DNA of 64,000 bases from the NCBI RefSeq assembly GCF_000798815.1, contig NZ_JTLD01000110.1, positions 3,325 through 67,324 of the forward strand, in the 5' to 3' direction. Position numbers and translations under genes: made by a program. Positions 2,887 to 59,931 of this stretch are shown here, piece by piece. The first letter of the stretch is position 1. Each line of letters opens with the position of its first letter. The stretch is from Alistipes sp. ZOR0009 (GTDB lineage Bacteria; Bacteroidota; Bacteroidia; Bacteroidales; ZOR0009). Under the pieces are notes generated by a model. It worked only from the letters and a program-made list of their open reading frames with translations, made no database searches and was not told where the DNA came from.

Positions 2887-5103
2887 ATGATGAAGAAACT
2901 TTTAGTTGTAGCCCTGCTTGCATGCTTGCAGATGGGCGTTCAGGCGCAGTCGCTGAGCATGCGAAAGGCGGAAAAGAGCTACAAGGCGAAGGCCTATGCC
3001 GATGCCATCCCTAGCTACAAGAAGGCTATTAATGCCGACTCCACCAACAAGCTGGCCGTACATAGGCTGGCCGACTGCTACCGCCTGGTGGAGGATTACA
3101 GCAACGCTGCGGCCACCTATGCGGTGCTCGAAAAAAGAGGCCTGCTAGAGAACCGCGAACCCTACTACTACAGCCAAACGCTGATGCAGCTCGGGAATTT
3201 CGACAGGGCTAAGGAGGTGGCAAAAATCAACAACCCCTCGGATGGAAAGGATGTTACCTACAGCAACATCCTCGATGCCATAGAGAATCAGAAACCCTAC
3301 TACTTCGAGGATACTCTGGGCTTTTCCATAGTAAACCTCAAGCAGATAAACACCCCAAGCAGCGAAATCGGGGCGGCGTTCTTCGGATCGTCCATCCTAT
3401 ACTCATCCAACCAGTTCGTAAACGACTACCTCAACAACCGACATGGCTGGACGGGCAACGACTTCTACTCGCTTAGGGAGGCCAAGGGCACGGCAAAGCC
3501 TATCGTACACGACGAGCTCAACTCGCGCTACAACAACGGCCCATCGTTCTACAGCGCGGCAGAGCGGAAGCTCTACGTAACCCAAAACCTCACCTCCTAC
3601 CTAAAGATACGCAAGCAGGAACAAAGCGAATCGATACTAAAGGTGATGGTCTATACCTACGATAGCGCAAGGGCTAAATGGACAAACGAAACCCCGTTTG
3701 CATTCAACAACGACAGCTACAACGTGGCCCACGTATCGCTCAACGAGCGGGGCGACATCCTTGCCTTTGCCTCCGATATGCCCAACGGCTTTGGAGGGAT
3801 GGATATCTACCTTTCGTACAAAAAGGATGGGGTTTGGAGCCAGCCTGTAAATGCCGGGAAGAACATAAACACTAAAGGGAATGAAATCTTCCCCTCGTTT
3901 TATGGCAACACCGTCCTCTTCTTCTCCTCCGATGGACAGCGCGTTCATGGTGGGTTAGACATCCTTTACGCCAAGCTAACGCCTAACGGTGCCGCCAATC
4001 CCCGCATAATCCCCCTACCCGTAAACAGCAACAACGACGATTTCGGCATACAGTTCTCGGCCGACAAGCAAACCGCGCTGTTTGCCTCCAACCGAGCTGG
4101 CGGCGCTGGCGACGATGATATCTACCTGCTCACGCTAAAGCGCCCCTTCTCGACAGACTACATAATAAAGGGCGTGTCGATTAATAAGGAGACGCAAAAG
4201 GTACTTCCTAATGCAGCCATCACGCTTTCCGATTCGTTGGGTACCAAGCTGGGCAGCGCTACCTCCGACAGCCTAGGCCGATTCACCTTCATCGTCGAAG
4301 ATCCCCTAGCCTTTAAGGTCGACGGGTCGAAGCTCAGCTTTATCGATGGAAGCATCGCCTCAACATTCCCCAAGGGGAAGAGCAGCGTAGAGGTTACCGT
4401 TCCGCTAACACCTACCTTTAGCGTATCGCTATATGCCTTAATAGTGGATAAGCGCACCGCCAAGCCGCTCGATAAGGTAAAGGTCGAAATGGTGGATGCC
4501 AAAACGGGCGCCCCATTCCTTTCGCTCAATACGGACGAAAGCGGTAGCTTCCTAAAGGTCCTCGAAGGCGTTAAAATGAACGATCAGCTATCCTATAAGA
4601 TTAACCTAGAGCGAAACGGGTACATCCCCAAGCAGCTAACCTTTTCTAAGAGGATAACCCGTCCGGGGCAAATAGACATGATGTCGGAGCTCGATATCAC
4701 CCTCGAACCATTTGAGGTGGGCAAGGATATCGGTAAGTTGATAAGCATAAACCCCATTTACTTCGACCTTTCAAAATGGGATATCCGCCCCGATGCCTCT
4801 GTCGAGCTGGATAAGATCGTAAAGGTAATGCAGGAAAACCCAACGATGGAGATCGAGCTGGGCTCGCATACCGACTGCCGATCATCGGCCCAGTTTAACC
4901 AGACCCTCTCCGAAAAGCGTGCGAAATCATCCACCGAATACATCGTATCTAAGGGGATAGATGCAAAACGAATCACCTTTAAGGGGTATGGCGAAAGCCG
5001 CCTGATAAACAAGTGCGCCTGCGAAGGGCCAAAGAAATCGAAGTGCCCCGAAAGCGAGCACGCCAAAAATAGGCGCACCGAATTCGTAATCACCAAACTC
5101 TAG
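2887..5103 (+). CDS. PorE-like OmpA family protein (TPR, PD40 propeller, CarboxypepD_reg, OmpA_C)
   Basis: 738 residues with a signal peptide (MMKKLLVVALLACLQMGVQAQ). Domain order: TPR-like helices about residues 22-120; PD40/WD40-like blades with repeated 'GGxDIY' signatures near residues 295, 345 and 399; a carboxypeptidase-regulatory-like beta domain from about 426; and an OmpA C-terminal peptidoglycan-binding domain from about 623 (YFDLSKWDIRPDA, ELGSHTDCRS, NRRTEFVI). This is the order described for PorE of the T9SS, which ties the outer-membrane machinery to peptidoglycan. Two start codons are adjacent (2887 and 2890). It is last in the operon and ends at a clear terminator. The last 18 codons plus the terminator recur about 1.5 kb downstream. 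It could be a paralogue dedicated to the local PorP/SprF rather than the housekeeping PorE. Confidence 0.88.
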   Translation: MMKKLLVVALLACLQMGVQAQSLSMRKAEKSYKAKAYADAIPSYKKAINADSTNKLAVHRLADCYRLVEDYSNAAATYAVLEKRGLLENREPYYYSQTLMQLGNFDRAKEVAKINNPSDGKDVTYSNILDAIENQKPYYFEDTLGFSIVNLKQINTPSSEIGAAFFGSSILYSSNQFVNDYLNNRHGWTGNDFYSLREAKGTAKPIVHDELNSRYNNGPSFYSAAERKLYVTQNLTSYLKIRKQEQSESILKVMVYTYDSARAKWTNETPFAFNNDSYNVAHVSLNERGDILAFASDMPNGFGGMDIYLSYKKDGVWSQPVNAGKNINTKGNEIFPSFYGNTVLFFSSDGQRVHGGLDILYAKLTPNGAANPRIIPLPVNSNNDDFGIQFSADKQTALFASNRAGGAGDDDIYLLTLKRPFSTDYIIKGVSINKETQKVLPNAAITLSDSLGTKLGSATSDSLGRFTFIVEDPLAFKVDGSKLSFIDGSIASTFPKGKSSVEVTVPLTPTFSVSLYALIVDKRTAKPLDKVKVEMVDAKTGAPFLSLNTDESGSFLKVLEGVKMNDQLSYKINLERNGYIPKQLTFSKRITRPGQIDMMSELDITLEPFEVGKDIGKLISINPIYFDLSKWDIRPDASVELDKIVKVMQENPTMEIELGSHTDCRSSAQFNQTLSEKRAKSSTEYIVSKGIDAKRITFKGYGESRLINKCACEGPKKSKCPESEHAKNRRTEFVITKL

Positions 5104-5164
5104 CCATAGATCTTTTATCCAATAACCAACAGCAGGAATCGCATTGCGCGGCTCCTGCTGTTTT
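5050..5164 (+). repeat. Direct repeat copy 1: porE-like 3' end plus terminator
   Basis: The end of the PorE-like gene, its stop codon and its terminator. It matches 6551-6665 with about 12 differences in about 115 bp by eye, at a constant offset of 1501 bp. The two copies bracket the rsgA gene. Confidence 0.9.
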
Positions 5165-5166
5165 TT
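5128..5166 (+). terminator. Rho-independent terminator of the surface-protein operon
   Basis: Stem AACAGCAGGA / TCCTGCTGTT (10 bp) with a 15-nt loop, followed by a T run. It lies 24 bp after the stop codon of the PorE-like gene. Confidence 0.9.
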
Positions 5167-5292
5167 ATATAGGCATGCGATATGCCACTATACTCGCTCC
5201 TTTTATCTTAATCGGTAATACAACTTGAAAGGGAGTAGACTAGCCTACCAGAAGCAAGGCAATGCCCTCCGTTTTATATTCAAATTGTTGTA

Positions 5293-5323
5293 ATTGCAGT
5301 TAAAACAAAAAGTCCTACCTTTG
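5293..5323 (+). promoter_or_regulatory. Predicted sigma-ABfr-type promoter for rsgA
   Basis: -33-like ATTG (5293-5296), a 19-nt spacer and an exact -7 box TACCTTTG (5316-5323), the Bacteroidota TAnnTTTG form. The resulting leader would be about 150 nt. Confidence 0.6.
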
Positions 5324-5366
5324 CAGCCTATGTCAATAGCATTTAAATCGGATTTGGTTAAGTAAA

Positions 5367-5422
5367 CAATCTGTATTTTACGTACAGGTTGTCCCTTCAT
5401 TTTCGGAGAGTTCTTCTCTGAA
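5367..5422 (+). promoter_or_regulatory. Two hairpins in the rsgA leader
   Basis: First hairpin: CAATCTGTA / TACAGGTTG, 9-bp arms with one G-T pair and a 7-nt loop (5367-5391). Second: TTCGGAGA / TCTCTGAA, 8-bp arms with one G-T pair and a 5-nt loop (5402-5422). No T run follows, so they are not simple terminators. A role in translation control of a ribosome-biogenesis GTPase is only a guess. Confidence 0.35.
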
Positions 5423-5476
5423 GCATCTTTATATTATCATAACTTTAGGTTTCACTTGCGTTTAAAAACGGAAGCA

Positions 5477-6529
5477 ATGAATAACTTGTATCTATATGGT
5501 TGGAACGAGAATCTTTTCCAACAAAAACAAAATTCCAACTACAAAGACCTCATACACGCACGAGTAACCGTTACTCATAAAACTTGCTACGAAGTGGTTG
5601 CTGAAGCAGGTTTTTATACCTGCGAGCTAGCGGGCAATATGCTTTACGGAAAGAGCAGCTCCGAATATCCTTGCACTGGCGATTGGGTCATCTTTAATCC
5701 TTTAGATGCTCAAAAAGGCATCATCCTAGACCTACTCCCTCGACAAAAGGCGCTTTACCGGCAAAAAAGCGGAGCAATCTCAGAAAGGCAGGCGGTAGCT
5801 TCATTTATAGACAAAGCGTTTATCGTGCAAAGCCTAGACAGCAGCTTTAATGTACGCCGAATTGAACGCTTTATGCTTCAAGCCGCAGACGAAGAAATTC
5901 AGCCAATCTTAGTCTTAACGAAGGCAGACTTAGGCTTCAATCCAGACGAAACAGGTAGAGCCTTGAAGCATATCTCCGGTAGGTTGCCCATTTTTTATAC
6001 GAGCATACAAAAGCCCGAAAGCATCGATCGGCTTCGAGCATATATCGCTACGGGCGAAACAATTGTCGTTACAGGAATGTCGGGAGTAGGTAAAAGTACG
6101 CTTATAAATGCGCTTTGCAGGCAGGACATTTTGCAGACTGGTGAAATTAGCGACTCAACAGGAAAGGGTAAGCATACCTCCACTCGTAGAGAAATGGTTT
6201 TAATGCCCGATTCGGGTGTGCTGATTGACACTCCAGGTGTAAAGCTATTTGGCGTTACAAACGACAATTCCGATAGCCTATCGGAAATCTTAGATATATC
6301 AGACTATCAGGATAAATGCCGATTCAACGATTGCCAGCATATTAACGAAAAAGGATGTGCCGTAATCGAAGCCGTCGAAAATGGAGAAATAGACAGAGGC
6401 GTTTACGAAAGCTACCTTAAGCTCCGTAGGGAGGCATGGCACTATAACACCTCCGTTCATGAAAAACGTAAGTACGAAAAAACGTTTTCCAAGATGGTGA
6501 AGAGCCATAAGAATAGTAACAAAATGTAA
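5477..6529 (+). CDS. rsgA: Ribosome small-subunit-dependent GTPase A (RsgA/YjeQ-type)
   Basis: 350 residues from ATG 5477, chosen over the TTG at 5456 because GGAAG lies just upstream. RsgA is a circularly permuted GTPase that acts late in 30S subunit maturation. The permuted order is visible: G4 TKAD (148-151), then G1 GMSGVGKST (from 200), then G3 DTPG (251-254), after an OB-fold-like N-terminus. The zinc finger C281-x4-C286-x-H288-x5-C294 follows, with a basic C-terminal tail. Its N-terminus (LYGWNENLF, YPCTGDWVIF, RIERF) resembles the longer about 350-residue RsgA type often found as an additional paralogue, so the genome may hold another rsgA. It has its own promoter and lies between two copies of the neighbouring gene's 3' end, which suggests it arrived as a cassette. 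Confidence 0.9.
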   Translation: MNNLYLYGWNENLFQQKQNSNYKDLIHARVTVTHKTCYEVVAEAGFYTCELAGNMLYGKSSSEYPCTGDWVIFNPLDAQKGIILDLLPRQKALYRQKSGAISERQAVASFIDKAFIVQSLDSSFNVRRIERFMLQAADEEIQPILVLTKADLGFNPDETGRALKHISGRLPIFYTSIQKPESIDRLRAYIATGETIVVTGMSGVGKSTLINALCRQDILQTGEISDSTGKGKHTSTRREMVLMPDSGVLIDTPGVKLFGVTNDNSDSLSEILDISDYQDKCRFNDCQHINEKGCAVIEAVENGEIDRGVYESYLKLRREAWHYNTSVHEKRKYEKTFSKMVKSHKNSNKM

Positions 6530-6550
6530 TTGAGTAGAGCTGATGAAATA

Positions 6551-6604
6551 GAAAGCGAGCAAGCCAAGAATAGGCGCACCGAACTCGTAATAAACAAACT
6601 CTAA
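6551..6604 (+). pseudogene. Remnant of an OmpA/PorE-like gene (last 17 codons and stop)
   Basis: In frame it reads ESEQAKNRRTELVINKL-stop, against ESEHAKNRRTEFVITKL-stop at the true porE-like end. The reading frame, the stop codon position and the OmpA NRRTE motif are kept, but no upstream coding sequence remains. It is the tail of a diverged homologue rather than a fresh duplicate. Confidence 0.8.
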
Positions 6605-6665
6605 TAGTAGATCTTTTATCCAATAACGAACAGCAGGAATCGTATTGTGCGGCTCCTGCTGTTTT
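6551..6665 (+). repeat. Direct repeat copy 2: porE-like tail remnant plus terminator
   Basis: About 90% identical to 5050-5164. It begins 22 bp after the rsgA stop codon and runs through the terminator stem. Confidence 0.9.
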
Positions 6666-6666
6666 T
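6629..6666 (+). terminator. Terminator after rsgA (duplicated copy)
   Basis: Stem AACAGCAGGA / TCCTGCTGTT followed by TTTTA, a copy of the terminator at 5128-5166. Here it would end the rsgA transcript. Confidence 0.85.
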
Positions 6667-6752
6667 ACTATATAGCAAAATTCGTGTCTATCCTCAATAA
6701 AAAAATAATTGACGCTGCTACATATAACCGTAGATTAAAGGCTTTTGGAGAT

Positions 6753-7829
6753 TTACACCAATTTTATCGTAATTATATTATTAGAGTCCTTAACACTGAC
6801 TTTAAACCATCTTTCTAAACTCTTAATCTTTTTGAACCAATCCTCAAATGCTATGCAACGATTATCAATCTCCAAGGTAACAATCCCGTTATTCCCGTCT
6901 ACTTCAATGCTAATTTTTCCCAATAAGCAATCAGGGGTATGCTGGTTGAAGAATTTGATCGGTTCAATAGTATCAACTAGTGCGAGTAGGAAAAGAAACT
7001 GATTTTCTGGACTACATGCATGAGGTCCACGAATCAACTCTTTAAGGTCATTTTCTTGATAAGTATTTCTTGATTTTTTGTCTGCAAGCCAAATATTGTG
7101 ATCCATAATTGTACTTGCGGCTATACTATAATACTTTTTGTGGTTTTTATCATAATGTAGACCTTTGTATTTAAAATCATCAGGGTTGAATACTTCTCCT
7201 CTCTCTTTATAATAAGCTTCTGCAAGTTCTTGACACTTTACATAATTTTCATTCAGCCTATGATAAAGTACTAAACCTCCCACAATTCCATGATTAACAG
7301 TATTAATACACGATGTACGGCAATATTCATAGTATTTTTTTATCGTTTCAACCGAGTAAAGGGAACTTGATTCTCCCTCTTTGAGAAGGTCATAATACGT
7401 AGAATAAATTGGCAGCCAACACCCCAATCTTTGATTAAGTAATTCTAAACAAGTTTCTTCTGGAGGATATTCTTCCTTATTTAATTCAACCACATATCCC
7501 ATATCGTGGTAAAGACTGGTAAGAAACCATAAGTAAAGAAACCCAGGCCCTTCTTCTAAAAGTTTTGGGAAGAGCTTTTCTTTAATCAGGATTCCTAGAA
7601 AAAAAGATGAAACAGAATGAAGTTGGCGGTTTGATCTGTCCATTTTTAAAAGAGTCACATCCTTGTTTGCTGCTCCAAAATAAGACTCAATAAAACGCCT
7701 TGCATTTTCATTGTTATCGTGCCCACATCCCATGTGGAAAGGATTAGTTTCAATGGTAAGTTTGTCGTAATATTTCCATCTCTCACTATCCTCAAAAATA
7801 TCATGGTATTCTGCAAGTAGATTTTTCAT
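6753..7829 (-). CDS. HD-domain-like protein, putative metal-dependent phosphohydrolase
   Basis: 358 residues with no signal peptide or membrane segment. An HD-superfamily-like set of residues is spaced along the chain: H71 (LHSVSS), H108-D109 (LYHDMGY), H180 (NHGIVGG), H244 (IMDHNIW) and D286 (ALVDTIEP). In HD proteins these bind one or two metal ions and hydrolyse phosphoester or nucleotide substrates. The C-terminal about 60 residues form a beta-rich tail of unknown role. The gene is clearly AT-richer than the M50 gene 37 bp upstream on the same strand, so the pair may share a transcript but not an origin. Substrate unknown; the HD assignment rests on the residue pattern alone. Confidence 0.6.
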   Translation of the reverse strand: MKNLLAEYHDIFEDSERWKYYDKLTIETNPFHMGCGHDNNENARRFIESYFGAANKDVTLLKMDRSNRQLHSVSSFFLGILIKEKLFPKLLEEGPGFLYLWFLTSLYHDMGYVVELNKEEYPPEETCLELLNQRLGCWLPIYSTYYDLLKEGESSSLYSVETIKKYYEYCRTSCINTVNHGIVGGLVLYHRLNENYVKCQELAEAYYKERGEVFNPDDFKYKGLHYDKNHKKYYSIAASTIMDHNIWLADKKSRNTYQENDLKELIRGPHACSPENQFLFLLALVDTIEPIKFFNQHTPDCLLGKISIEVDGNNGIVTLEIDNRCIAFEDWFKKIKSLERWFKVSVKDSNNIITIKLV

Positions 7830-7866
7830 TCTCAGATCAGGTATATTTTATCAAGCTACTTATCAA

Positions 7867-8994
7867 TTAGGCTTTGCCAGCCATCTCGCGCACCCATTCT
7901 ATCAATTCGAGTTCGCTCTTAGCCTCCCCCTTATTTGGCGATCGCTCGGCCAAACGCTTGGCCTCGGCAAAAAGCCTATCGGCCTTAGCCGTGTCATTCT
8001 CCACAAGCAGAGCGTAGGCGTACAGCAGCCGCTTCTTCCCCACTTGGTAGCGCTCACTCTTGCCAACATACTTTTTCAACTCCTTGGTGTAAAGCGCCTC
8101 GACCTCATCGGAACGACGTGCCCCCATAAGCTCGCAGAAAAGCATTTCACATTGCCACTCCAAGCGGTAAAGCATTGCCAGCTTAGGGGCAAACGGGCGG
8201 ATAAGATCTAGGCACTCGGTAGCCTGCGCCAGCTCCTTCCTATCCATGTGCCAACCCGCACGCAGCAGCGCGACGAACATGTGCATGTAGCTGCCGTAGC
8301 GGGGCTGCTCGGGTAGAACAAACCACTCCTCAGGCATGTCACGCAGCCGCGTACCGCTACTCTGCAGCCCATTAACCTGAAGCATCAACCAAAATACGTG
8401 GCGCGCATAGTCGTCCTTCTTAAGGGTGAAGAGATTCTTCCCATCGTTGGGAACTCCCGATACCACCATAGGAATTCCGTTGGTAAGCACAATTAGGATT
8501 CCCGATGCAGCGAGCGTGGCAAGAATTATTACAGAAAAGAAAGAGGTAAAGCTAAATACGAACAGCAGCAACAGGCAGCTAGTTGATACAATAAAGTTCA
8601 TCAGCACCCCACCTAAGTTGTAGAGCACGTAAGGAACGGGTTGAATACCTTCGGGAGGCATCATTAGCGCCTGCCCACCAGTACCGGGAATATGGTAGCG
8701 TCGCACCTTCAGCTTACCGTTATCGCGGACTAGCATCACCCGAAGAATCCGAAACGAAACAAATCGGTAGCCCGAAATTGCCCCGAAAACCAGGTGACCA
8801 ACCTCGTGGACAATGATTTGCACAAAGAAACTAGCAAAAAAAATGAGCAGCGCCCAAAGGGGGTAAAGGTCGTTGTGCGATGAGCCCTTTGTCAGATGGT
8901 CAATAAATACCATTAAGAAGACACCCACAAAAGCTCCAAAAAGGAGAGATATGGCCAAGGTTATCCAATGACTATAATTCTTAGGTTTACTCAT
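7867..8994 (-). CDS. M50-type (site-2-protease-like) membrane metallopeptidase
   Basis: 375 residues. Membrane segments near residues 11-31, 45-62, 130-150 and 152-175 surround a zinc motif HEVGH (63-67) that lies inside a hydrophobic stretch, as in intramembrane M50 proteases. A later NDG (183-185) in a GVPNDGKN context stands where M50 enzymes carry their third metal ligand, Asp. The C-terminal half (from about 200) is cytosolic and helical, TPR-like, which may dock a substrate or partner. Base composition resembles the core genes. The HD-domain gene follows on the same strand after 37 bp. Substrate unknown; regulated intramembrane proteolysis is the family role. Confidence 0.78.
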   Translation of the reverse strand: MSKPKNYSHWITLAISLLFGAFVGVFLMVFIDHLTKGSSHNDLYPLWALLIFFASFFVQIIVHEVGHLVFGAISGYRFVSFRILRVMLVRDNGKLKVRRYHIPGTGGQALMMPPEGIQPVPYVLYNLGGVLMNFIVSTSCLLLLFVFSFTSFFSVIILATLAASGILIVLTNGIPMVVSGVPNDGKNLFTLKKDDYARHVFWLMLQVNGLQSSGTRLRDMPEEWFVLPEQPRYGSYMHMFVALLRAGWHMDRKELAQATECLDLIRPFAPKLAMLYRLEWQCEMLFCELMGARRSDEVEALYTKELKKYVGKSERYQVGKKRLLYAYALLVENDTAKADRLFAEAKRLAERSPNKGEAKSELELIEWVREMAGKA

Positions 8995-9516
8995 AGAATC
9001 GTAGAATTATTTAGGTTTCTAAGGTAGCACAATTATCGACCAATAGAGCAATCGCACCTGCTTCTACTATCGTTCACCCCTACCCTACGCCATCTAGCCA
9101 ACTTGCCGATAACTTTCTATTCAATCTTTTTGCGGATTCAATTATGCAATAGGCAGTCGCCGTTCCCAGAAAAACTAAAACACATCACCTCAATCACAAT
9201 TGTACTTGCAGTATCATTCTTTTCAATGGTATAGACCATAAACTTAAGCCTCTTAAAAAACAAACTCCATTCCTTTATCAGATGATCTCATTGTAGTAAA
9301 ATCCTCAGATTCAAATTACCGCTCCTTCTTTTTTCTCCTCAAATTCAAAACACAATACAAAATTAACGTTTAATAAACTTTTTTTCAGCCAAACTCTCTT
9401 GAATATTTCTTTTTAAAAATTCGCGCAAGCCAAACTTTCATTGTATATTTGTATACAATGAAACATGTATCATTGTATGCAATAACACACATTTTGACGT
9501 AATCCGACAATACCCC
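8995..9516. other. AT-rich intergenic region between the M50 gene and the XRE-ImmA gene
   Basis: 522 bp between divergent genes, marked by a drop in GC beginning near 9120. It holds the palindromic operator/promoter of the downstream gene (9439-9479). Nothing else was recognised; no tRNA or coding frame of note. Confidence 0.7.
9439..9479 (+). promoter_or_regulatory. Palindromic operator overlapping the -7 box of the XRE-ImmA gene
   Basis: Perfect inverted repeat CATTGTATA-TTTG-TATACAATG (9439-9460). The sequence TATATTTG (9444-9451), an exact Bacteroidota -7 box, lies inside it. A third half-site CATTGTATG lies at 9471-9479. A regulator bound here would block RNA polymerase. The adjacent gene encodes an XRE-type HTH, so autorepression is the simplest reading. 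No good -33 box is visible. Confidence 0.65.
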
Positions 9517-10725
9517 ATGTATATTTCAAAAAGCAACTCAGATAATTTTATCATAGACGGCAACACCTCCTTAGCTGAAATGTTAAACGCATTTCTGGTA
9601 GATAATGGAATCGTAGAATCCGCTATTGCAGAAGAAATAGGTATCAATAGGGAGACGCTGTCTAAGTTTTTAAAGGGTGAAACTGATTTAAAACTAAATC
9701 AGGCTATTAAAATAATGAAACTCCTAAATTTAACTGAGAGTCAATTTATTTCGCTATACAACAAGAAAATCGGAGACGAAGAACTAAAACAAATAGAAAA
9801 CTCAGAACGCTTATCTTACATAGCAAGAAATTTTGATATCCCTACTCTGAAAAATTTAGGAATTATTCCTAAGCGTGCAAGAATAGATATATTCGAAAAA
9901 CAAATCTGCGATTTTTTTGGCTTTAAGTCTATCTACGAATATGACGACACATCATTAATGCCAACCCTTTTTAGTAAGTCAAAGGCCTCAATTGCTCATG
10001 ATAAAGAGCAAAAAATGAAAACCTTTTGGCTAAAATGCTCTATTTATTCATTTTCTAAAATAAATAATCCAAATGAATATAATAGAGAACTGCTTTTAGA
10101 GTTTCTTAAAAGAATTAGAGAATTTACAGTTGACTCAAAACATGGCTATGAAAAAGTAGTTTTAATACTTTACAGATTAGGTATAACTGTATTAACTCAA
10201 TCATACATTCCTAAAACAGGTGCATTTGGTGTTACAATGATTTTAGATGGAAAGCCTTGTATCGTCATAACAGATATGAAAAAAAAATATCATAAACTAT
10301 GGCTTACCCTTCTCCATGAACTATATCATGTAATCAATGATTTTGACTTACTTGAAACAATGAAATATCATGTATCCAATCCCGAAAATCCAGATATTCT
10401 TTTAAACGAAGAAAGAGCAAATCAGTTTGCTATTGATGTACTTGTACATCCCAACATTCAGAGAGAATTACACAAAATTGTATCCCTCCCATTCAAAATG
10501 AATACATTATCAGAAAATCTACATATTGATATCAGTATTTTATATGGTGTCTACTTAGAAACTTTACCTAAAGAAAAGCAACCTTTAGAATTCGCTAAGT
10601 ACACTCACATGCTTAAAGAAACAAAAGAATCAATCAGATATGTCGAATTCGATGCGATACCGAGACGTTCTTTAGAGGAAGCCATTGAAAATATAAAAAA
10701 CAACTTGAATCGCATAGCCATTTAA
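9517..10725 (+). CDS. XRE-family HTH protein fused to ImmA/IrrE (M78) metallopeptidase
   Basis: 402 residues. An XRE-like helix-turn-helix occupies about residues 16-80 (core ESAIAEEIGINRETLSKFLKGE). A middle helical region follows, then a Zn-peptidase domain with HELYH (267-271) and the downstream NEERANQFA (from 297), the ImmA/IrrE signature. Family members such as phage ImmA and Deinococcus IrrE cleave transcriptional repressors in response to stress; here repressor and protease sit in one chain. The gene has an operator-like palindrome over its promoter and is followed after 16 bp by an unknown gene in the same orientation. The pair is strikingly AT-rich against the flanks, a sign of transfer. 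It could be a stress switch, a toxin-antitoxin-like unit or a phage remnant. Confidence 0.85.
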   Translation: MYISKSNSDNFIIDGNTSLAEMLNAFLVDNGIVESAIAEEIGINRETLSKFLKGETDLKLNQAIKIMKLLNLTESQFISLYNKKIGDEELKQIENSERLSYIARNFDIPTLKNLGIIPKRARIDIFEKQICDFFGFKSIYEYDDTSLMPTLFSKSKASIAHDKEQKMKTFWLKCSIYSFSKINNPNEYNRELLLEFLKRIREFTVDSKHGYEKVVLILYRLGITVLTQSYIPKTGAFGVTMILDGKPCIVITDMKKKYHKLWLTLLHELYHVINDFDLLETMKYHVSNPENPDILLNEERANQFAIDVLVHPNIQRELHKIVSLPFKMNTLSENLHIDISILYGVYLETLPKEKQPLEFAKYTHMLKETKESIRYVEFDAIPRRSLEEAIENIKNNLNRIAI

Positions 10726-10741
10726 CTAAAAGAACTTAATT

Positions 10742-11212
10742 ATGGAAATTTCAAAACAGAAACTTGACGATTTAATTAGTGCTGTTGAAAAAATAGTTGA
10801 AGCAAACAGTTCTCAAGAGCACAATTTATTTCCGACTCTTAAGTCGCCTGAAAATATTTCTGAAATTTTAGAAATCCCACTACAAGATCCTCAGAAATCA
10901 TACAATCTTTATTACAGCAACATACAAAAATTTCTAGGAACTTTCTTACCCAAAGACAATGAAATTAGCAAACCTATTCGTGAATTAGTTTGTATTTTAT
11001 TGACTGGCAAAGAAAAAAGCAACTTAACTTATGGAACTAGAGGAGCAGATTCAAGGATGGCAAGAACTAATGATATGGAGAATATGATTGACGTTCTTTC
11101 TGAGTGGTCTAGTACTCCTAATGAGTTTTTTAGACTTGGAATAATTCTTTTAGAGAAAAATAAAAAATTGGGATATATTTCAGAAGAAAGAACTTTACAG
11201 GATTACATCTAA
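10742..11212 (+). CDS. Unknown protein, partner of XRE-ImmA
   Basis: 156 residues, AT-rich like its neighbour, starting 16 bp after it, so co-transcription is very likely. I do not recognise a family. The sequence predicts mostly helix, with no signal peptide, no membrane segment and no cysteine cluster. A polar central stretch NLTYGTRGADSRMARTNDMENM is the most distinctive part and could be a loop at an active or binding site. Possible roles are the protease substrate, a toxin controlled by the HTH protein, or an adaptor; none is shown by the sequence. A terminator stands about 90 bp downstream. Confidence 0.7.
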   Translation: MEISKQKLDDLISAVEKIVEANSSQEHNLFPTLKSPENISEILEIPLQDPQKSYNLYYSNIQKFLGTFLPKDNEISKPIRELVCILLTGKEKSNLTYGTRGADSRMARTNDMENMIDVLSEWSSTPNEFFRLGIILLEKNKKLGYISEERTLQDYI

Positions 11213-11303
11213 CTATATATATCAATAGTTAATTCACTAAAACATCCCCTAAAAATCAGGTTGACCTCTTCTAATTCAAAATCATCTTCTTTTAAAATAT
11301 CGC

Positions 11304-11333
11304 GGTAGCAAGCAAATACTTGCTACCTTTTTT
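11304..11333 (+). terminator. Terminator of the XRE-ImmA unit
   Basis: Perfect 9-bp stem GGTAGCAAG / CTTGCTACC, 6-nt loop, then a run of seven T. Confidence 0.9.
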
Positions 11334-11393
11334 ATACCCGCTTGCAATTGCCATTGCTCCAAATCAGCCTACTTCTCCCTCCCCATAAAGCAT

Positions 11394-11420
11394 CAAAGCC
11401 CGGCTGTTAGCCGGGCTTTG
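11394..11420 (-). terminator. Terminator hairpin of the minus-strand gene at 11443
   Basis: Perfect 12-bp stem CAAAGCCCGGCT / AGCCGGGCTTTG with a 3-nt loop, 22 bp past the stop codon. The T tract is short and lies mainly within the stem end. Confidence 0.7.
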
Positions 11421-28079: not shown

Positions 28080-28309
28080 GGCTCGTTGGATGGCGAATAG
28101 AGCCTCTGCTCGCTTTTTAGCCATTCGTCACCAGACGAATGGCCTTCAAAAAGCTTTAATTAGCTTTCAACAGGTGTTGAATGGATTTCTAAAAGCTTTA
28201 TTTAACTTTCAACAGGTGACGAATGGCTTTTCAATAACTTTGATTAACATTCAACCGGTGATGAATGGGTTTTCATTAAGTTTAGATAACATTCGACACC
28301 CGTCGAATA
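28080..28309. repeat. 42-bp tandem array with a palindromic head in each unit
   Basis: Units start at 28122, 28164, 28206, 28248 and 28290 (last one partial), exactly 42 bp apart; a more diverged unit precedes at 28080. Each unit opens with a 20-bp head of the form CATTCGTC-ACCA-GACGAATG, followed by a 22-bp AT-rich body. Head changes are often paired: CATTCGTC with GACGAATG, TTCAAC with GTTGAA, ATTCGAC with GTCGAAT. No cas gene is in the window. Confidence 0.85.
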
Positions 28310-51852: not shown

Positions 51853-52000
51853 AAAAAAACAGGTAAATCAAATAGAAGAACCTTATCCTGTAGCAAAAGT
51901 GCTGATTATTTGAGCACATAGACATCTTTACTCGCAAGCATTAGCAGCATTCGGCACATCAAAAACACCAAATACAACGTTAACAGGGGGTACTGTAAGT

Positions 52001-52186
52001 GTTGAAATCGACGATTTCAACATTGTTTTTGGCAAAAACGACATTGTTTTTGCCAAATTCAACGTCGTTTTTGGCAAATTCAACATTGTTTTTGGCAAAT
52101 TCAGCGTTGTTTTTGGCATCTCCATTGATGAAATCGTCGTTTTCAACGTTGTTTTTGGCGTTTCCTTCGTTGAAAATGCCATTTTT
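52001..52186. repeat. 21-bp tandem array headed by a perfect palindrome
   Basis: A palindrome with arms GTTGAAATCG / CGATTTCAAC around one A (52001-52021) leads into units of exactly 21 bp starting at 52019, 52040, 52061, 52082, 52103, 52124 and 52145. Most units read AAC(A/G)TTGTTTTTGGCAAATTC; the sixth is diverged, and a trailing eighth (52166) is recognisable only by its GTTGAAA and TGCC words. No long gene fits it in either strand. Confidence 0.88.
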
Positions 52187-55954: not shown

Positions 55955-56608
55955 ATGAAAAAGTTCGCAATTGTACTTTCAGGATGTGGCGTTCAAGATG
56001 GAGCGGAAATCCACGAATCGGTAATGGCAATGCTTTCGGTTGATATGGCGGGCGCCACCTACCAACTTTTTGCACCAAACATTAACCAAACAAGGGTGAT
56101 AAACCACCTCTCGGGTCAACCAACTAGCGAAACACGCAACGTACTTGTAGAGTCGGCAAGAATTGCTCGTGGAAATATAAAACCGCTTAACGAATACAAC
56201 CCTTCCGAGTTTGATGCCATCCTATTTCCTGGTGGATTTGGGGCAGCACTCAACCTCAGCACCTTTGCAACAGAAGGAGCAAACATGAGCGTTAATCCAG
56301 ATGTAGAAAAAGCGGTTAAAGCAACTCACAGCGCAGGCAAAGCGATTGGCGCAATGTGCATTGCTCCTGTAGTTATTGCCAAAATACTTGGAAAAGTTAA
56401 TGTTACCATTGGTAACGATAGCGGTGTTGCTGCTGCAATTAGCGAATTTGGCTCGAAACACACCAATACCCATAAAGGAGAAGTGGTAGAAGATGGCGAG
56501 AATAAGATTTTCACAACCCCCTGCTACATGCTAGATTCGAGCATTAAAGATATTTTTGAGGGAGCGACAAATCTTGTTCAACAAATTTTAAAAAGCCTCA
56601 GCAAGTAA
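55955..56608 (+). CDS. elbB: Glyoxalase-like ElbB (DJ-1/PfpI superfamily)
   Basis: 217 residues, the usual ElbB length. The DJ-1-like fold is marked by 'KKFAIVLSGCGVQDGAEIHE' at the start, 'FDAILFPGGFGAALNLSTFA' with the conserved Glu/Gly turn, and the nucleophile elbow C135 in AMCIAPVVIAK. ElbB of E. coli was linked to isoprenoid biosynthesis and has weak glyoxalase activity; its role in the cell is not settled. It lies 51 bp after the endonuclease gene in the same direction; the link is probably only positional. Confidence 0.94.
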   Translation: MKKFAIVLSGCGVQDGAEIHESVMAMLSVDMAGATYQLFAPNINQTRVINHLSGQPTSETRNVLVESARIARGNIKPLNEYNPSEFDAILFPGGFGAALNLSTFATEGANMSVNPDVEKAVKATHSAGKAIGAMCIAPVVIAKILGKVNVTIGNDSGVAAAISEFGSKHTNTHKGEVVEDGENKIFTTPCYMLDSSIKDIFEGATNLVQQILKSLSK

Positions 56609-56858
56609 CACATTTCCTCAGAAAATCGCTCAAAAACGCAAAATGGGAAGAAATGCGCCTCAAAAAAAACACTTTTTTAAACAAAATGCATCGACGTAAA
56701 AATAAAAAGATGTCTAACAAAAATATTTCACACCAATTTACAGGTGCAAAACCAGCCTTAAACAGGCTAAAAGACGATATACAAAGATTAAGAAGAATTT
56801 CCCTTACAAATATCCACACATCTAACAATGTTAATGTTTCAAAATTCACCAACAATGC

Positions 56859-56866
56859 TATCTTTG
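56859..56866 (+). promoter_or_regulatory. -7 box upstream of the small membrane protein
   Basis: Exact TATCTTTG with TTTC 19 nt upstream (-33 has TTTG in consensus). Transcription would start near 56871. Confidence 0.5.
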
Positions 56867-56893
56867 TCGATGGGGAAATTAAAAAAGGGGATT

Positions 56894-57022
56894 ATGGGAA
56901 TTTTTCTTACTTCAGCAATTATCCTTTGGTTTGGCTTGTTGGGCTATATCGCCAACGATTACTACAAGCTATGGAAAGCTTTAAACGAGAATTCCATTGG
57001 GGCGACAAAGCCAAAGGTGTAA
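56894..57022 (+). CDS. Predicted small single-pass membrane protein
   Basis: 42 residues: a hydrophobic helix MGIFLTSAIILWFGLLGYIA, then NDYYKLWKALNENSIGATKPKV, a polar tail. The start at 56894 is chosen because AAAAAAGGGG lies just before it and a -7 box stands 28 nt upstream; the frame is open further up to 56828. It ends at a strong terminator. A longer frame (56653-57033) overlaps it but is unlike a protein. I do not recognise a family; the case rests on promoter, ribosome site, hydrophobic profile and terminator together. Confidence 0.45.
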   Translation: MGIFLTSAIILWFGLLGYIANDYYKLWKALNENSIGATKPKV

Positions 57023-57025
57023 ATG

Positions 57026-57059
57026 AAAAATAGCGCTACCGTGTGATAGCGCTATTTTT
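57026..57059. terminator. Bidirectional terminator between the small gene and gcvP
   Basis: 13-bp arms AAAAATAGCGCTA / TAGCGCTATTTTT with an 8-nt loop; T runs on both strands serve the convergent genes. Confidence 0.92.
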
Positions 57060-57072
57060 TATTCTATTAATC

Positions 57073-59931
57073 TTATAGGTAAGATTCGATTGGAGCACAA
57101 GTACAAACCAAGTTTCTATCTCCGTATCCGTTATCTACACGAGTAGATGCAGGCCAGAATTTATTCTCCTCGATCCATTTAAGCGGATAAGCCGCTTTCA
57201 TTCTGCTATATTTATGGTTCCACTCATCTGCTGAAACCTCTGTAGCCACGTGCGGAGCCATCTTAAGAACGTTATCCTCAGCATCTGCTGTTCCGTTCTT
57301 AATTTCCTCACATTCGTTCTTAATAGAAATCATAGCCTCCACAAAACGGTCAATTTCTTGAACCGATTCGCTCTCTGTTGGCTCAACCATTAAGGTTTCA
57401 TGAACTGGGAACGATAAGGTTGGAGCATGGAATCCATAGTCCATCAAACGTTTTGCCACATCTGTAGCGTCCACACCATACTCTCTCTTAAGATGCTGAA
57501 CATCGATAATACACTCGTGACCAACACGCCCAGTCTCTCCTGTATAAAGGGTGCTAAAGCAACCTTCCAACTTCTTAGACAGGTAGTTTGCGTTTAGAAT
57601 AGCCATTTCTGTAGCATTCTTCAAGCCTTCGCCACCAAGCATTTTGATGTATCCATAAGAAATAGGAAGAACGCTTGCACTACCAAATGGAGCTGCAGCA
57701 ACAGCGCTAATACCTTCGCTACCTCCTGCCTTAACCAACTTATGAGAAGGAAGGAACTTAGCAAGATGAGCAGCTACGCAGATAGGTCCAACCCCAGGAC
57801 CACCACCACCGTGAGGAATTGCAAAGGTCTTGTGCAAGTTTAGGTGACAAACATCGGCGCCAATCGTACCTGGATTGGTTAACCCAACCTGTGCATTCAT
57901 ATTTGCACCATCCATATAAACCTGACCACCTGCGTTGTGAATGATATCCATCATATCCTTAATACGGCTTTCGAATACACCGTGTGTAGAAGGATAGGTA
58001 ACCATCAACCCTGAAAGGGTATCGCTATACTTAGCAGCCTTTTCTTTTAGGTCATCAACATTAATGTTTCCCTTTTCGTCGCAAGCAACAACAACAACCT
58101 CCATTCCGGCCATCGCCGCAGAAGCAGGGTTGGTTCCGTGTGCCGATGCAGGGATTAAGACAATGTTTCTATGCCCTTGACCATTAGCTCGGTGGTATTC
58201 ACGAATTACCATAAGGCCTGTGTACTCGCCATTCGCACCAGAGTTAGGCTGAAGAGAGGTGGCAGCAAAGCCGGTGATAACCGCTAAATCTTTCTCAAGA
58301 TCAGCGATTAGCTCCAAGTAACCTTCAACCTGATTGCTAGGAGCAAATGGGTGTAGCGAGCTGAACTCGGGGAAACTCAAAGGAAGCATTTCAGCAGCAG
58401 CATTCAACTTCATTGTACAAGATCCCAATGAAATCATGCTATGCGTCAATGAAATATCTTTACGCTCCAACTTTTTGATGTAGCGCATCATTTCAGTCTC
58501 AGAATGGTACTTATTAAATACCTTTTCGGTCAAGATGGCTGATTCTCTTGCAAACTTTTTATCAAAAGCAACCTCTTCTCCAATTACAGCGGCGCTGCCA
58601 TTGTTTTTTCCTGCAGCAACTGCAAAAATGTCAAGGACAGCCGCAATTTCCGCTTCGGTGGTTACCTCATCAAAGCTCATACGAACAACGTTGCTAGATG
58701 GGAAGAAGAAGTTAATTTCTTTCGCCAACGCCAGCTCTTCTATTTTCTTTACATCCGCCACTTCAACTTCTAAAGTATCAAAGAAGTTTACGTTACGTTG
58801 GGTATAACCAAGAACTTTTAAGCCGTTATTCACGGCTACAGCAGCATTATGAGCATGCAGCGCAATTCGTTTTACCCCTTCTGCCCCATAGTACACTGCA
58901 AACATACCAGCCATAGAAGCAAGTAGCGCTTGAGCGGTACAAATATTAGAAGTAGCCTTCTCACGCTTAATATGTTGCTCACGAGTTTGGAGCGCCATAC
59001 GAAGAGATGGATTTCCGAGGCGATCTACAGAAACTCCAATAATACGGCCTGGCATGCTACGCTTGTATTCATCCTTGGTGGCAAGATAGGCAGCATGAGG
59101 ACCGCCGAATCCCATTGGAATACCAAAACGTTGAGTAGATCCAACTGCAATATCAGCCCCCCACTCTGCAGGCGACTTAACCATTACAAGGCTTAAAATA
59201 TCGCAGGCAGCGGTTACCAAAATCCCCTTTTCGTGACAAGCAGCAGCAAAAGCCGCGTAATCCTTAATCTCTCCTGAAGCGGTAGGGTACTGAACAATGG
59301 CGCCAAACATACGATCTGTTAGGCTAACCTCTTCGAACTTACCAACAACAACCTCTATTCCAAAAGGAACAGAACGAAGGTTAATAACATCAAGAGTTTG
59401 AGGAAAAATGTCCTCATCTACAAATAGAACATTCTTCCCAGCCTTTACAGCAGTACGCGAACGAGCACCAAACATCATTCCCATGGCTTCAGCAGCAGCT
59501 GTTGCCTCATCCAAAAGCGAACAGTTGCTAATCTCCATTCCTGTAAGGCTAATTACAGCAGTTTGGAAATTAAGCAGCGCCTCTAAACGTCCTTGAGATA
59601 TTTCAGCCTGATATGGAGTGTAGGAAGTATACCAGCTAGGGTTCTCGAAGATGTTGCGTTGAATTACAGCTGGAGTATAGGTTGGATAGTAGCCCATACC
59701 TATAAAACTTCTGTAAATCTTATTCTTCGCTCCAATAGCCTTAATTTTTTGAGCAAATTCGTACTCGCTAATTCCCTTATCGAGCTTCAACGGTTCCTGC
59801 AGCCTAATAGACGTAGGAACAATTTGATTGATTAGCTCATCTACCGAAGAAACCCCAACAACCTTAAGCATTTCAGCTATCTCATGCTGACGTGGTCCAT
59901 TATGTCTTCCGACAAATTTATCGTTTGCCAT
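57073..59931 (-). CDS. gcvP: Glycine dehydrogenase (decarboxylating), P-protein of the glycine cleavage system
   Basis: 952 residues, the size of the single-chain P protein in which the two subunit-like halves are joined. It decarboxylates glycine with PLP and passes the aminomethyl group to the lipoyl H protein. Visible markers: N-terminal 'FVGRHNGPRQHEIAEML', 'SFIGMGYYPTYTPAVIQRNIFENPSWYTSYTPYQAEISQGRLEALLNFQ', and the PLP lysine K701 in NLHKTFAIPHGGGGPG. The C-terminus has 'ECEEIKNGTADAEDNVLKMAPH'. The H and T protein genes are not in the window, so the system is split in this genome. No glycine riboswitch is visible in the 111 bp upstream. Confidence 0.97.
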   Translation of the reverse strand: MANDKFVGRHNGPRQHEIAEMLKVVGVSSVDELINQIVPTSIRLQEPLKLDKGISEYEFAQKIKAIGAKNKIYRSFIGMGYYPTYTPAVIQRNIFENPSWYTSYTPYQAEISQGRLEALLNFQTAVISLTGMEISNCSLLDEATAAAEAMGMMFGARSRTAVKAGKNVLFVDEDIFPQTLDVINLRSVPFGIEVVVGKFEEVSLTDRMFGAIVQYPTASGEIKDYAAFAAACHEKGILVTAACDILSLVMVKSPAEWGADIAVGSTQRFGIPMGFGGPHAAYLATKDEYKRSMPGRIIGVSVDRLGNPSLRMALQTREQHIKREKATSNICTAQALLASMAGMFAVYYGAEGVKRIALHAHNAAVAVNNGLKVLGYTQRNVNFFDTLEVEVADVKKIEELALAKEINFFFPSSNVVRMSFDEVTTEAEIAAVLDIFAVAAGKNNGSAAVIGEEVAFDKKFARESAILTEKVFNKYHSETEMMRYIKKLERKDISLTHSMISLGSCTMKLNAAAEMLPLSFPEFSSLHPFAPSNQVEGYLELIADLEKDLAVITGFAATSLQPNSGANGEYTGLMVIREYHRANGQGHRNIVLIPASAHGTNPASAAMAGMEVVVVACDEKGNINVDDLKEKAAKYSDTLSGLMVTYPSTHGVFESRIKDMMDIIHNAGGQVYMDGANMNAQVGLTNPGTIGADVCHLNLHKTFAIPHGGGGPGVGPICVAAHLAKFLPSHKLVKAGGSEGISAVAAAPFGSASVLPISYGYIKMLGGEGLKNATEMAILNANYLSKKLEGCFSTLYTGETGRVGHECIIDVQHLKREYGVDATDVAKRLMDYGFHAPTLSFPVHETLMVEPTESESVQEIDRFVEAMISIKNECEEIKNGTADAEDNVLKMAPHVATEVSADEWNHKYSRMKAAYPLKWIEENKFWPASTRVDNGYGDRNLVCTCAPIESYL

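Follow-up and report, generated by a model that had tools for sequence, protein, structure and literature searches.

Organization of the locus

The window analysed here is a stretch of 64,000 nucleotides (nt) from the 4.4-Mb genome of Alistipes sp. ZOR0009 (G000, 125 contigs; positions 3325-67324 of contig C110, NZ_JTLD01000110.1), and its subject is rsgA2, a second gene for an RsgA-type GTPase, which is located together with a short leader between two copies of the 3′ end of a PorE-like gene. The features of this locus that are described below lie on the plus strand. The gene rsgA2 extends from 5477 to 6529, is the only gene-like open reading frame (ORF) between the two copies and encodes a protein of 350 amino acids (aa), which was assigned by Pfam, TIGR00157 and comparison with its paralogue. 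It matched the Pfam RsgA_GTPase model with an E-value of 5.4e-47 and 160.3 bits against a cut-off of 30 and reached 150.3 against a cut-off of 100 for TIGR00157, while its scores remained below the cut-offs of the RsgA models PRK12288 and PRK12289. The protein sequence contains GMSGVGKST, DTPG and a C-terminal Cys/His cluster, which we take to be RsgA motifs. A canonical rsgA is present elsewhere in the same genome (G000:C2:38541-39374) and its product is 34% identical to that of rsgA2; in the congeners G001 and G002 only canonical-type rsgA was found. The original prediction, made by a model from the letters of the DNA, that a complete rsgA of the additional-paralogue kind lies between the tails was thus confirmed.

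The upstream neighbour (2887-5103, 738 aa) combines TPR, PD40 and OmpA domains and carries the upstream tail. It is termed PorE-like here, as it did not reach the curated cut-offs of the NCBIfam models for PorE and CHU_0125; its best PorE match showed about 30% identity in the congeners and, in the order (393 genomes), 44% at most, so that no relative with a comparable PorE, at which an empty site might be recognised, was found. The segment made up of its last 17 codons, stop codon and terminator (copy 1, 5050-5171) recurs as a direct repeat of 122 nt at a spacing of 1501 nt (copy 2, 6551-6672), with 108 of 122 positions identical, no insertions or deletions and sharp edges, since in the 20-nt bins immediately outside the repeat identity drops to background on both sides. 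The recurrence had been predicted at exactly this spacing, with about 12 differences in about 115 bp and 18 codons; the recurrence itself stood, and its size was corrected to 14 differences in 122 nt and to 17 codons plus the stop. The repeat leaves the PorE-like gene with an intact 3′ end, as an integrative element would.

In copy 2 the reading frame is kept and the stop codon TAG of copy 1 is replaced by TAA, with three replacement changes (H to Q, F to L and T to N, exactly as had been claimed) and two silent ones. Comparison with the tails of PorE relatives, of which 17 of 19 were usable (L146 has a different end and the sequence of L148 is incomplete), revealed the H in 17 of 17 and the F of the motif RRTEF in 15 of 17, whereas copy 2 has Q and L at these positions. 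Because the conserved H and F are lost and replacement changes stand at three to two silent ones, the downstream tail looks like a decaying, untranslated relic rather than the 3′ terminus of a functional homologue, five codons being few for such a reading. The earlier view of copy 2 as the end of a diverged homologue and not a recent copy was therefore not supported.

Apparent lateral acquisition of the rsgA2 unit

Among 60 genomes including that of the window, RsgA proteins of 47-60% identity to rsgA2 were found in G025, G032 and G022 only, while the remaining genomes gave 51% over a piece of 55 residues (G018) or at most 43%. In 395 genomes of the class, G132 (71%) alone exceeded 45% identity at an E-value of 1e-60. 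A scan of genome contigs yielded 105 rsgA2 loci, the best 80 of which, with identities of 54-82%, belong mostly to Bacteroidales, but also to Flavobacteriales, Sphingobacteriales and Chitinophagales and, furthermore, to Oxalobacter paraformigenes and three Akkermansia-type bins. When a tree was built from 81 rows, the window protein fell, with a support of 99/97, into a starred set of 12 rows with members from Parabacteroides, Dysgonomonas, Proteiniphilum, Bacteroides and Oxalobacter (that is, Tannerellaceae, Dysgonomonadaceae and Bacteroidaceae plus Oxalobacter), a mixing of taxa which, according to the caution given by the tree program, does not by itself prove transfer. Since the congeners are without the paralogue and the nearest relatives occur in other families, one of them in Oxalobacter, rsgA2 was apparently acquired laterally and inserted after porE.

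Similarity at the DNA level to other rsgA2 loci is confined to 5294-6517 and thus comprises promoter, leader and gene, leaving 122 bp before the promoter and 21 bp before the second tail outside it. The predicted cargo of only a ribosome-biogenesis GTPase was accordingly right with regard to the single gene, and the cassette has to be extended to promoter, leader and rsgA. No vehicle of transfer was found, because plasmid and phage collections gave only distant RsgA matches with less than 60% identity and viral contigs gave no RsgA match; in addition, inspection by eye of the listed ORFs at the loci of Oxalobacter (L062) and Akkermansia (L121) revealed no mobile gene. As to the course of events, a unit of one gene, consisting of promoter, leader-peptide attenuator and rsgA2, would have been acquired laterally and inserted directly behind the porE terminator, in an event that would have produced a further porE tail with its terminator, which has decayed since.

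An ordinary rearrangement, in which a tandem porE paralogue downstream lost all but its last 17 codons by replacement or deletion on the arrival of rsgA2, is a serious contender, even if we do not favour it. The 11% divergence of the two tails and the tandem PorE-like genes of the relative G671 (C17:53822-55978 and 56000-58168) agree with it; however, no further porE body is detectable upstream of 6551, and the loss of H and F does not decide the matter, as it fits decay after the loss of a gene and a simple duplicated fragment equally. Site-specific integration into the porE 3′ end, by which the rsgA2 element would have supplied a new upstream tail and displaced the old one downstream, is considered unlikely. 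Although the position of the repeat over last codons, stop and terminator and its sharp edges resemble attachment-site duplications, and rsgA2 looks laterally acquired, the ORF list of the interval between the repeats contains no integrase or recombinase, and a search of the whole genome matched the porE-tail repeat at these two places only. Inspection by eye of five rsgA2 loci, limited to the first 90 residues of each ORF and carried out with no family search, likewise revealed no integrase. Moreover, a scan for flanking repeats at ten RsgA loci of relatives (three with close rsgA2 and seven with RsgA at 36-41% identity) returned nothing comparable, the nearest being an AT-rich pair of 27 nt with 81% identity in L003. 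In the two congeners the porE-tail repeat gave four matches of 16-22 bases with E-values of 0.15 to 0.89, which is the level of chance.

Leader peptide and RNA structure

The leader spans 5294-5476 and starts with a probable Bacteroidota-type promoter at 5294-5323, composed of TTG (5294-5296), a 19-nt spacer and TACCTTTG (5316-5323), as read from the sequence by the consensus for such promoters. Its first base coincides with position 5294, where the DNA similarity to the other loci begins. Six bases after the promoter follows a leader ORF of 11 codons at 5330-5365, encoding MSIAFKSDLVK, and immediately 3′ of its stop codon lies hairpin 1 (5366-5392). The terminator-like hairpin 2 (5401-5423) differs in register from the consensus and has a counterpart in relatives; a third hairpin was seen near the start codon. 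The leader peptides of relatives, each ended by a stop codon, read MFPILFNSDLVL, MVNILLKSDLVA, MFKFNMDLVK and, as a divergent form, MKNQLFTYSQAFSSDIV, the usual motif before the stop being [DE]-x-V.

In all 53 leaders compared, a Val codon GTN is present, with bases 1 and 2 invariant and the third base variable (G in 28, A in 13, T in 9 and C in 3). Seventeen of these leaders had been chosen with a pattern that requires GTN, and the 36 chosen without that pattern have GTN as well (third base G in 20, A in 9, T in 5 and C in 2). The codon after Val is K in 22 leaders, L in 11, stop in 10, R in 6 and four different ones in single leaders, and then TAA follows in 53 of 53. In addition, a model built from 33 chosen leaders was run on the 393 genomes of the order (search R1) and gave 52 matches in 44 genomes, where the matches in the window, G132 (L063), G025 (L107) and G032 (L109) are present by construction, because these leaders were in the training set, and where the E-values, as in the searches R2 and R3, are rough. 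An ATG-started short ORF is found in 51 of the 52 matches (L200 is without ATG), and Val is its last or next to last residue in all 51 (GTG 28, GTA 13, GTT 9, GTC 1). Judged by this codon pattern, the leader ORF is conserved upstream of the gene under selection at the level of the protein. As Val is constant and the next codon is free, the pattern suggests that arrest occurs with Val in the P site.

The leader alignment supports two helices with 19 pairs, each of which shows changes on both sides (19 of 19). Paired cells amount to 79.1% (87.5% in helix 1 and 70.0% in helix 2), compared with 25-45% when the partners are slid by one to three columns, and the covariation score was matched by none of 500 shuffles, the tested helices having been derived from the same alignment as the score. 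A conserved RNA structure hence adjoins the short ORF, as is the case in leader attenuators. Rfam 15 returned no match for 13 leader-bearing loci and, for window positions 4900-8900 at E-values up to 5, two matches below the threshold, neither of them within the leader. Among the papers listed by searches of an open-licence library, none dealt with this leader or with the presence of a second RsgA in Bacteroides.

Genes behind the leader and its distribution

In all but one of the 52 R1 matches the gene that follows directly encodes a methyltransferase or an RsgA, the remaining match being cut by a contig end. The next gene encodes a methyltransferase of the BT_2972 type in 44 cases, six of which precede rsgA2 within the stretch examined, an RsgA-type protein in five and a second type of methyltransferase in two. 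The genome of the window itself holds a second leader (C14:165178-165291, peptide MFNLKKDLVR) before its methyltransferase, and in both congeners the leader likewise precedes their methyltransferase. The leader-linked methyltransferase groups with five structurally solved sequences (PDB 3f4k, 3kkz, 3svz, 3t7r and 3e7p) at E-values below 1e-118. In search R2, the family of G132 (Bacteroides ihuae) gave 14 matches in 11 of 151 genomes, followed by a methyltransferase in 11 cases, by RsgA2 in one, by a methyltransferase remnant of 33 residues in one (L210) and by neither in one (L215).

Seen from the gene, this leader, termed type 1, was found by nhmmer at 50 of the best 80 of the 105 rsgA2 loci and by eye at three more (L070, L094 and L101). 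At 31 of the 50 loci found by nhmmer a methyltransferase is positioned between leader and rsgA2, and all three occur together also in Oxalobacter (L062) and in Akkermansia bins (L121 and L133). A second leader type is located directly before rsgA2 at 20 of the 80 loci (L075, L077, L104, L105, L108, L110-L113, L116, L117, L119, L120, L122, L123, L125, L127, L129, L131 and L132) and encodes a highly conserved peptide, typically M[QK][KR]QLFTYYSL..GMIA. It belongs in 18 of the 20 cases to Flavobacteriia, Sphingobacteriia or Chitinophagaceae, and in the 17 that were aligned its stop codon is TGA in nine and TAA in eight with the peptide unchanged.

Several single loci deviate from this arrangement. 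At L218 (G745:C2) a type-1 leader with the peptide MFNITSERVK precedes an RsgA of another lineage that is 33% identical, a single case with an E-value of 0.002, according to which the leader was perhaps recruited to RsgA more than once. At L191 (G690:C1) and L196 (G521:C1) the leader is followed by a different type of methyltransferase (SGPGGLRLVDFLAKKMG...) and, as recognised by eye, by GNAT-like proteins downstream. The N-terminus of RsgA2 at L087 and L128 resembles the start of the methyltransferase (MNNENQTIH... and MNNEFKATI...) fused to RsgA2, as if the methyltransferase between leader and rsgA2 had been deleted.

Proposed function of the leader

In leader-peptide attenuators, arrest of the ribosome near the end of a short ORF alters the folding of the RNA downstream. 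The best reading of the element upstream of rsgA2 is a ribosome-stall-sensing attenuator that would belong to a translation-stress module. A ribosome would stall on the leader ORF with the Val codon in its P site, for example under a ribosome-targeting compound, and would thereby alter the fate of the leader RNA so that more rsgA2 is expressed. By analogy with known attenuators, the arrested ribosome, positioned against hairpin 1, may affect either termination at hairpin 2 or the accessibility of the start codon, and RsgA2 may then aid the maturation or recovery of the 30S subunit. Since the same leader precedes the methyltransferase in the own genome (C14) and in relatives, rsgA2 and the S-adenosylmethionine (SAM) methyltransferase of the BT_2972 type would form one stress-response module.

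The acquired rsgA2 unit together with a stall-sensing leader attenuator within such a module is the joint best explanation of the locus and is held to be reasonably probable. The repeat, the paralogy, the transfer-like phylogeny, the conserved, codon-like leader ORF and the covarying hairpins are its parts that can be read from the DNA itself. We infer the stalling, the inducer and the switch, because the one switch that was computed failed. More tentatively, leader, methyltransferase and RsgA2 may constitute a transferable, stall-inducible module of Bacteroidota for the rescue or protection of ribosomes. Arrest of ribosomes on the Val-ending peptide by a compound would in that case activate a second 30S-assembly GTPase along with the methyltransferase, and the second, unrelated leader peptide would control the same family of rsgA2 genes, chiefly in Flavobacteriia and Sphingobacteriia.

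A number of observations weigh against the attenuator and the module. The computed candidate, a switch in which hairpin 1 would pair through its 3′ arm with the 5′ arm of hairpin 2, was not supported in the 53 leaders: hairpin 2 formed equally when the ribosome footprint was blocked (means of 0.44 and 0.44), and pairing of arms 2 and 3 went from 0.13 to 0.22. Hairpin 2 is, furthermore, off the consensus register in the window and in many leaders of the rsgA2 type. The Asp or Glu of the peptide motif is not universal, as Akkermansia has KSASVL (L121, deviant peptide MFNTSFKSASVL) and L191, L196 and L222 have QILVR, KYLVL and EILVG in its place. Seven of the 80 rsgA2 loci, one of them ending at a contig end, carry neither leader type, and at L215 (G918:C1) a weaker leader (MISHYMDIVL, E-value 4.8e-4) precedes a protein of 416 aa that is neither methyltransferase nor RsgA. 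Outside Bacteroidales the leader element is rare or unseen, because R2 matched only three of 287 class genomes, all three from Bacteroidales, and the second type matched none of 295, a count that says little because the sample had no genome known to hold it. Finally, passages of the study on BT_2972 report that expression in E. coli conferred no resistance to kanamycin, tetracyclines, erythromycin or chloramphenicol (PMC3225368).

That the leader RNA instead binds a ligand such as SAM, the short ORF being translated merely in passing, is very improbable, for while a SAM-dependent methyltransferase is the commonest downstream gene (44 of 52) and two stems covary, the Val codon is conserved in a codon-like manner, the structure consists of simple hairpins with no match in Rfam at the loci scanned, and the same leader also precedes genes of RsgA GTPases.

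Other features of the window

The region 5172-11400 is mostly low in GC (about 0.29-0.46), interrupted by a peak of 0.5 near 8000-8750. Apart from rsgA2 it carries a protein of 358 aa on the minus strand (6753-7829; no Pfam match, HDMGY motif recognised by eye) and a helix-turn-helix (HTH) protein with an HELYH motif (9517-10725), and it is perhaps an accessory island behind porE. Tandem repeats with units of 21 and 42 nt are located at 51995-52183 and 28137-28262.

Significance and comparison with known systems

RsgA itself is ordinary and leader-peptide attenuators are already known in kind. The locus adds an apparently undescribed, recurrent cis-regulatory RNA with leader peptide in Bacteroidales, and it links both an orphan, structurally solved methyltransferase family, that of BT_2972, and the additional RsgA with translation stress, so that the functions of both would become directly testable via a stalling compound. 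If the inducer is indeed a ribosome-targeting drug, the module would represent a new kind of transferable response, which may act through ribosome assembly.

With RsgA (YjeQ/EngC) the protein shares the RsgA_GTPase domain and a TIGR00157 score above the cut-off, whereas rsgA2 is an additional gene of patchy distribution, whose product shares 34% identity with that of the canonical rsgA and which is placed behind a leader-peptide element. The leader-linked methyltransferase belongs with BT_2972 and BVU_3255; the passages considered here from the study of BT_2972 deal with its structure, with the binding of the cofactor and with an assay for resistance, and mention neither leader nor RsgA (PMC3225368). 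Long 5′ untranslated regions of Bacteroides thetaiotaomicron contain short ORFs reminiscent of leader peptides, the passages concerned naming BT_4401 and not BT_2972 (PMC7366714). The upstream ORF of TopAI-YjhQ in E. coli is, according to passages of its description, likewise a short ORF that senses translation stress and responds to several antibiotic classes (PMC12121999); it belongs to different genes and a different phylum and is likened to the rsgA2 leader by description. A similar layout is that of the attenuators of the resistance genes ermB, msrD and tetQ (CTnDOT), in which a short ORF near the transcript start likewise precedes hairpins and a gene related to the ribosome. Of these, tetQ is listed as a Bacteroides translational attenuator (PMC5418344). 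The rsgA2 leader differs in its peptide motif, usually [DE]-x-V, and in the genes that it precedes.

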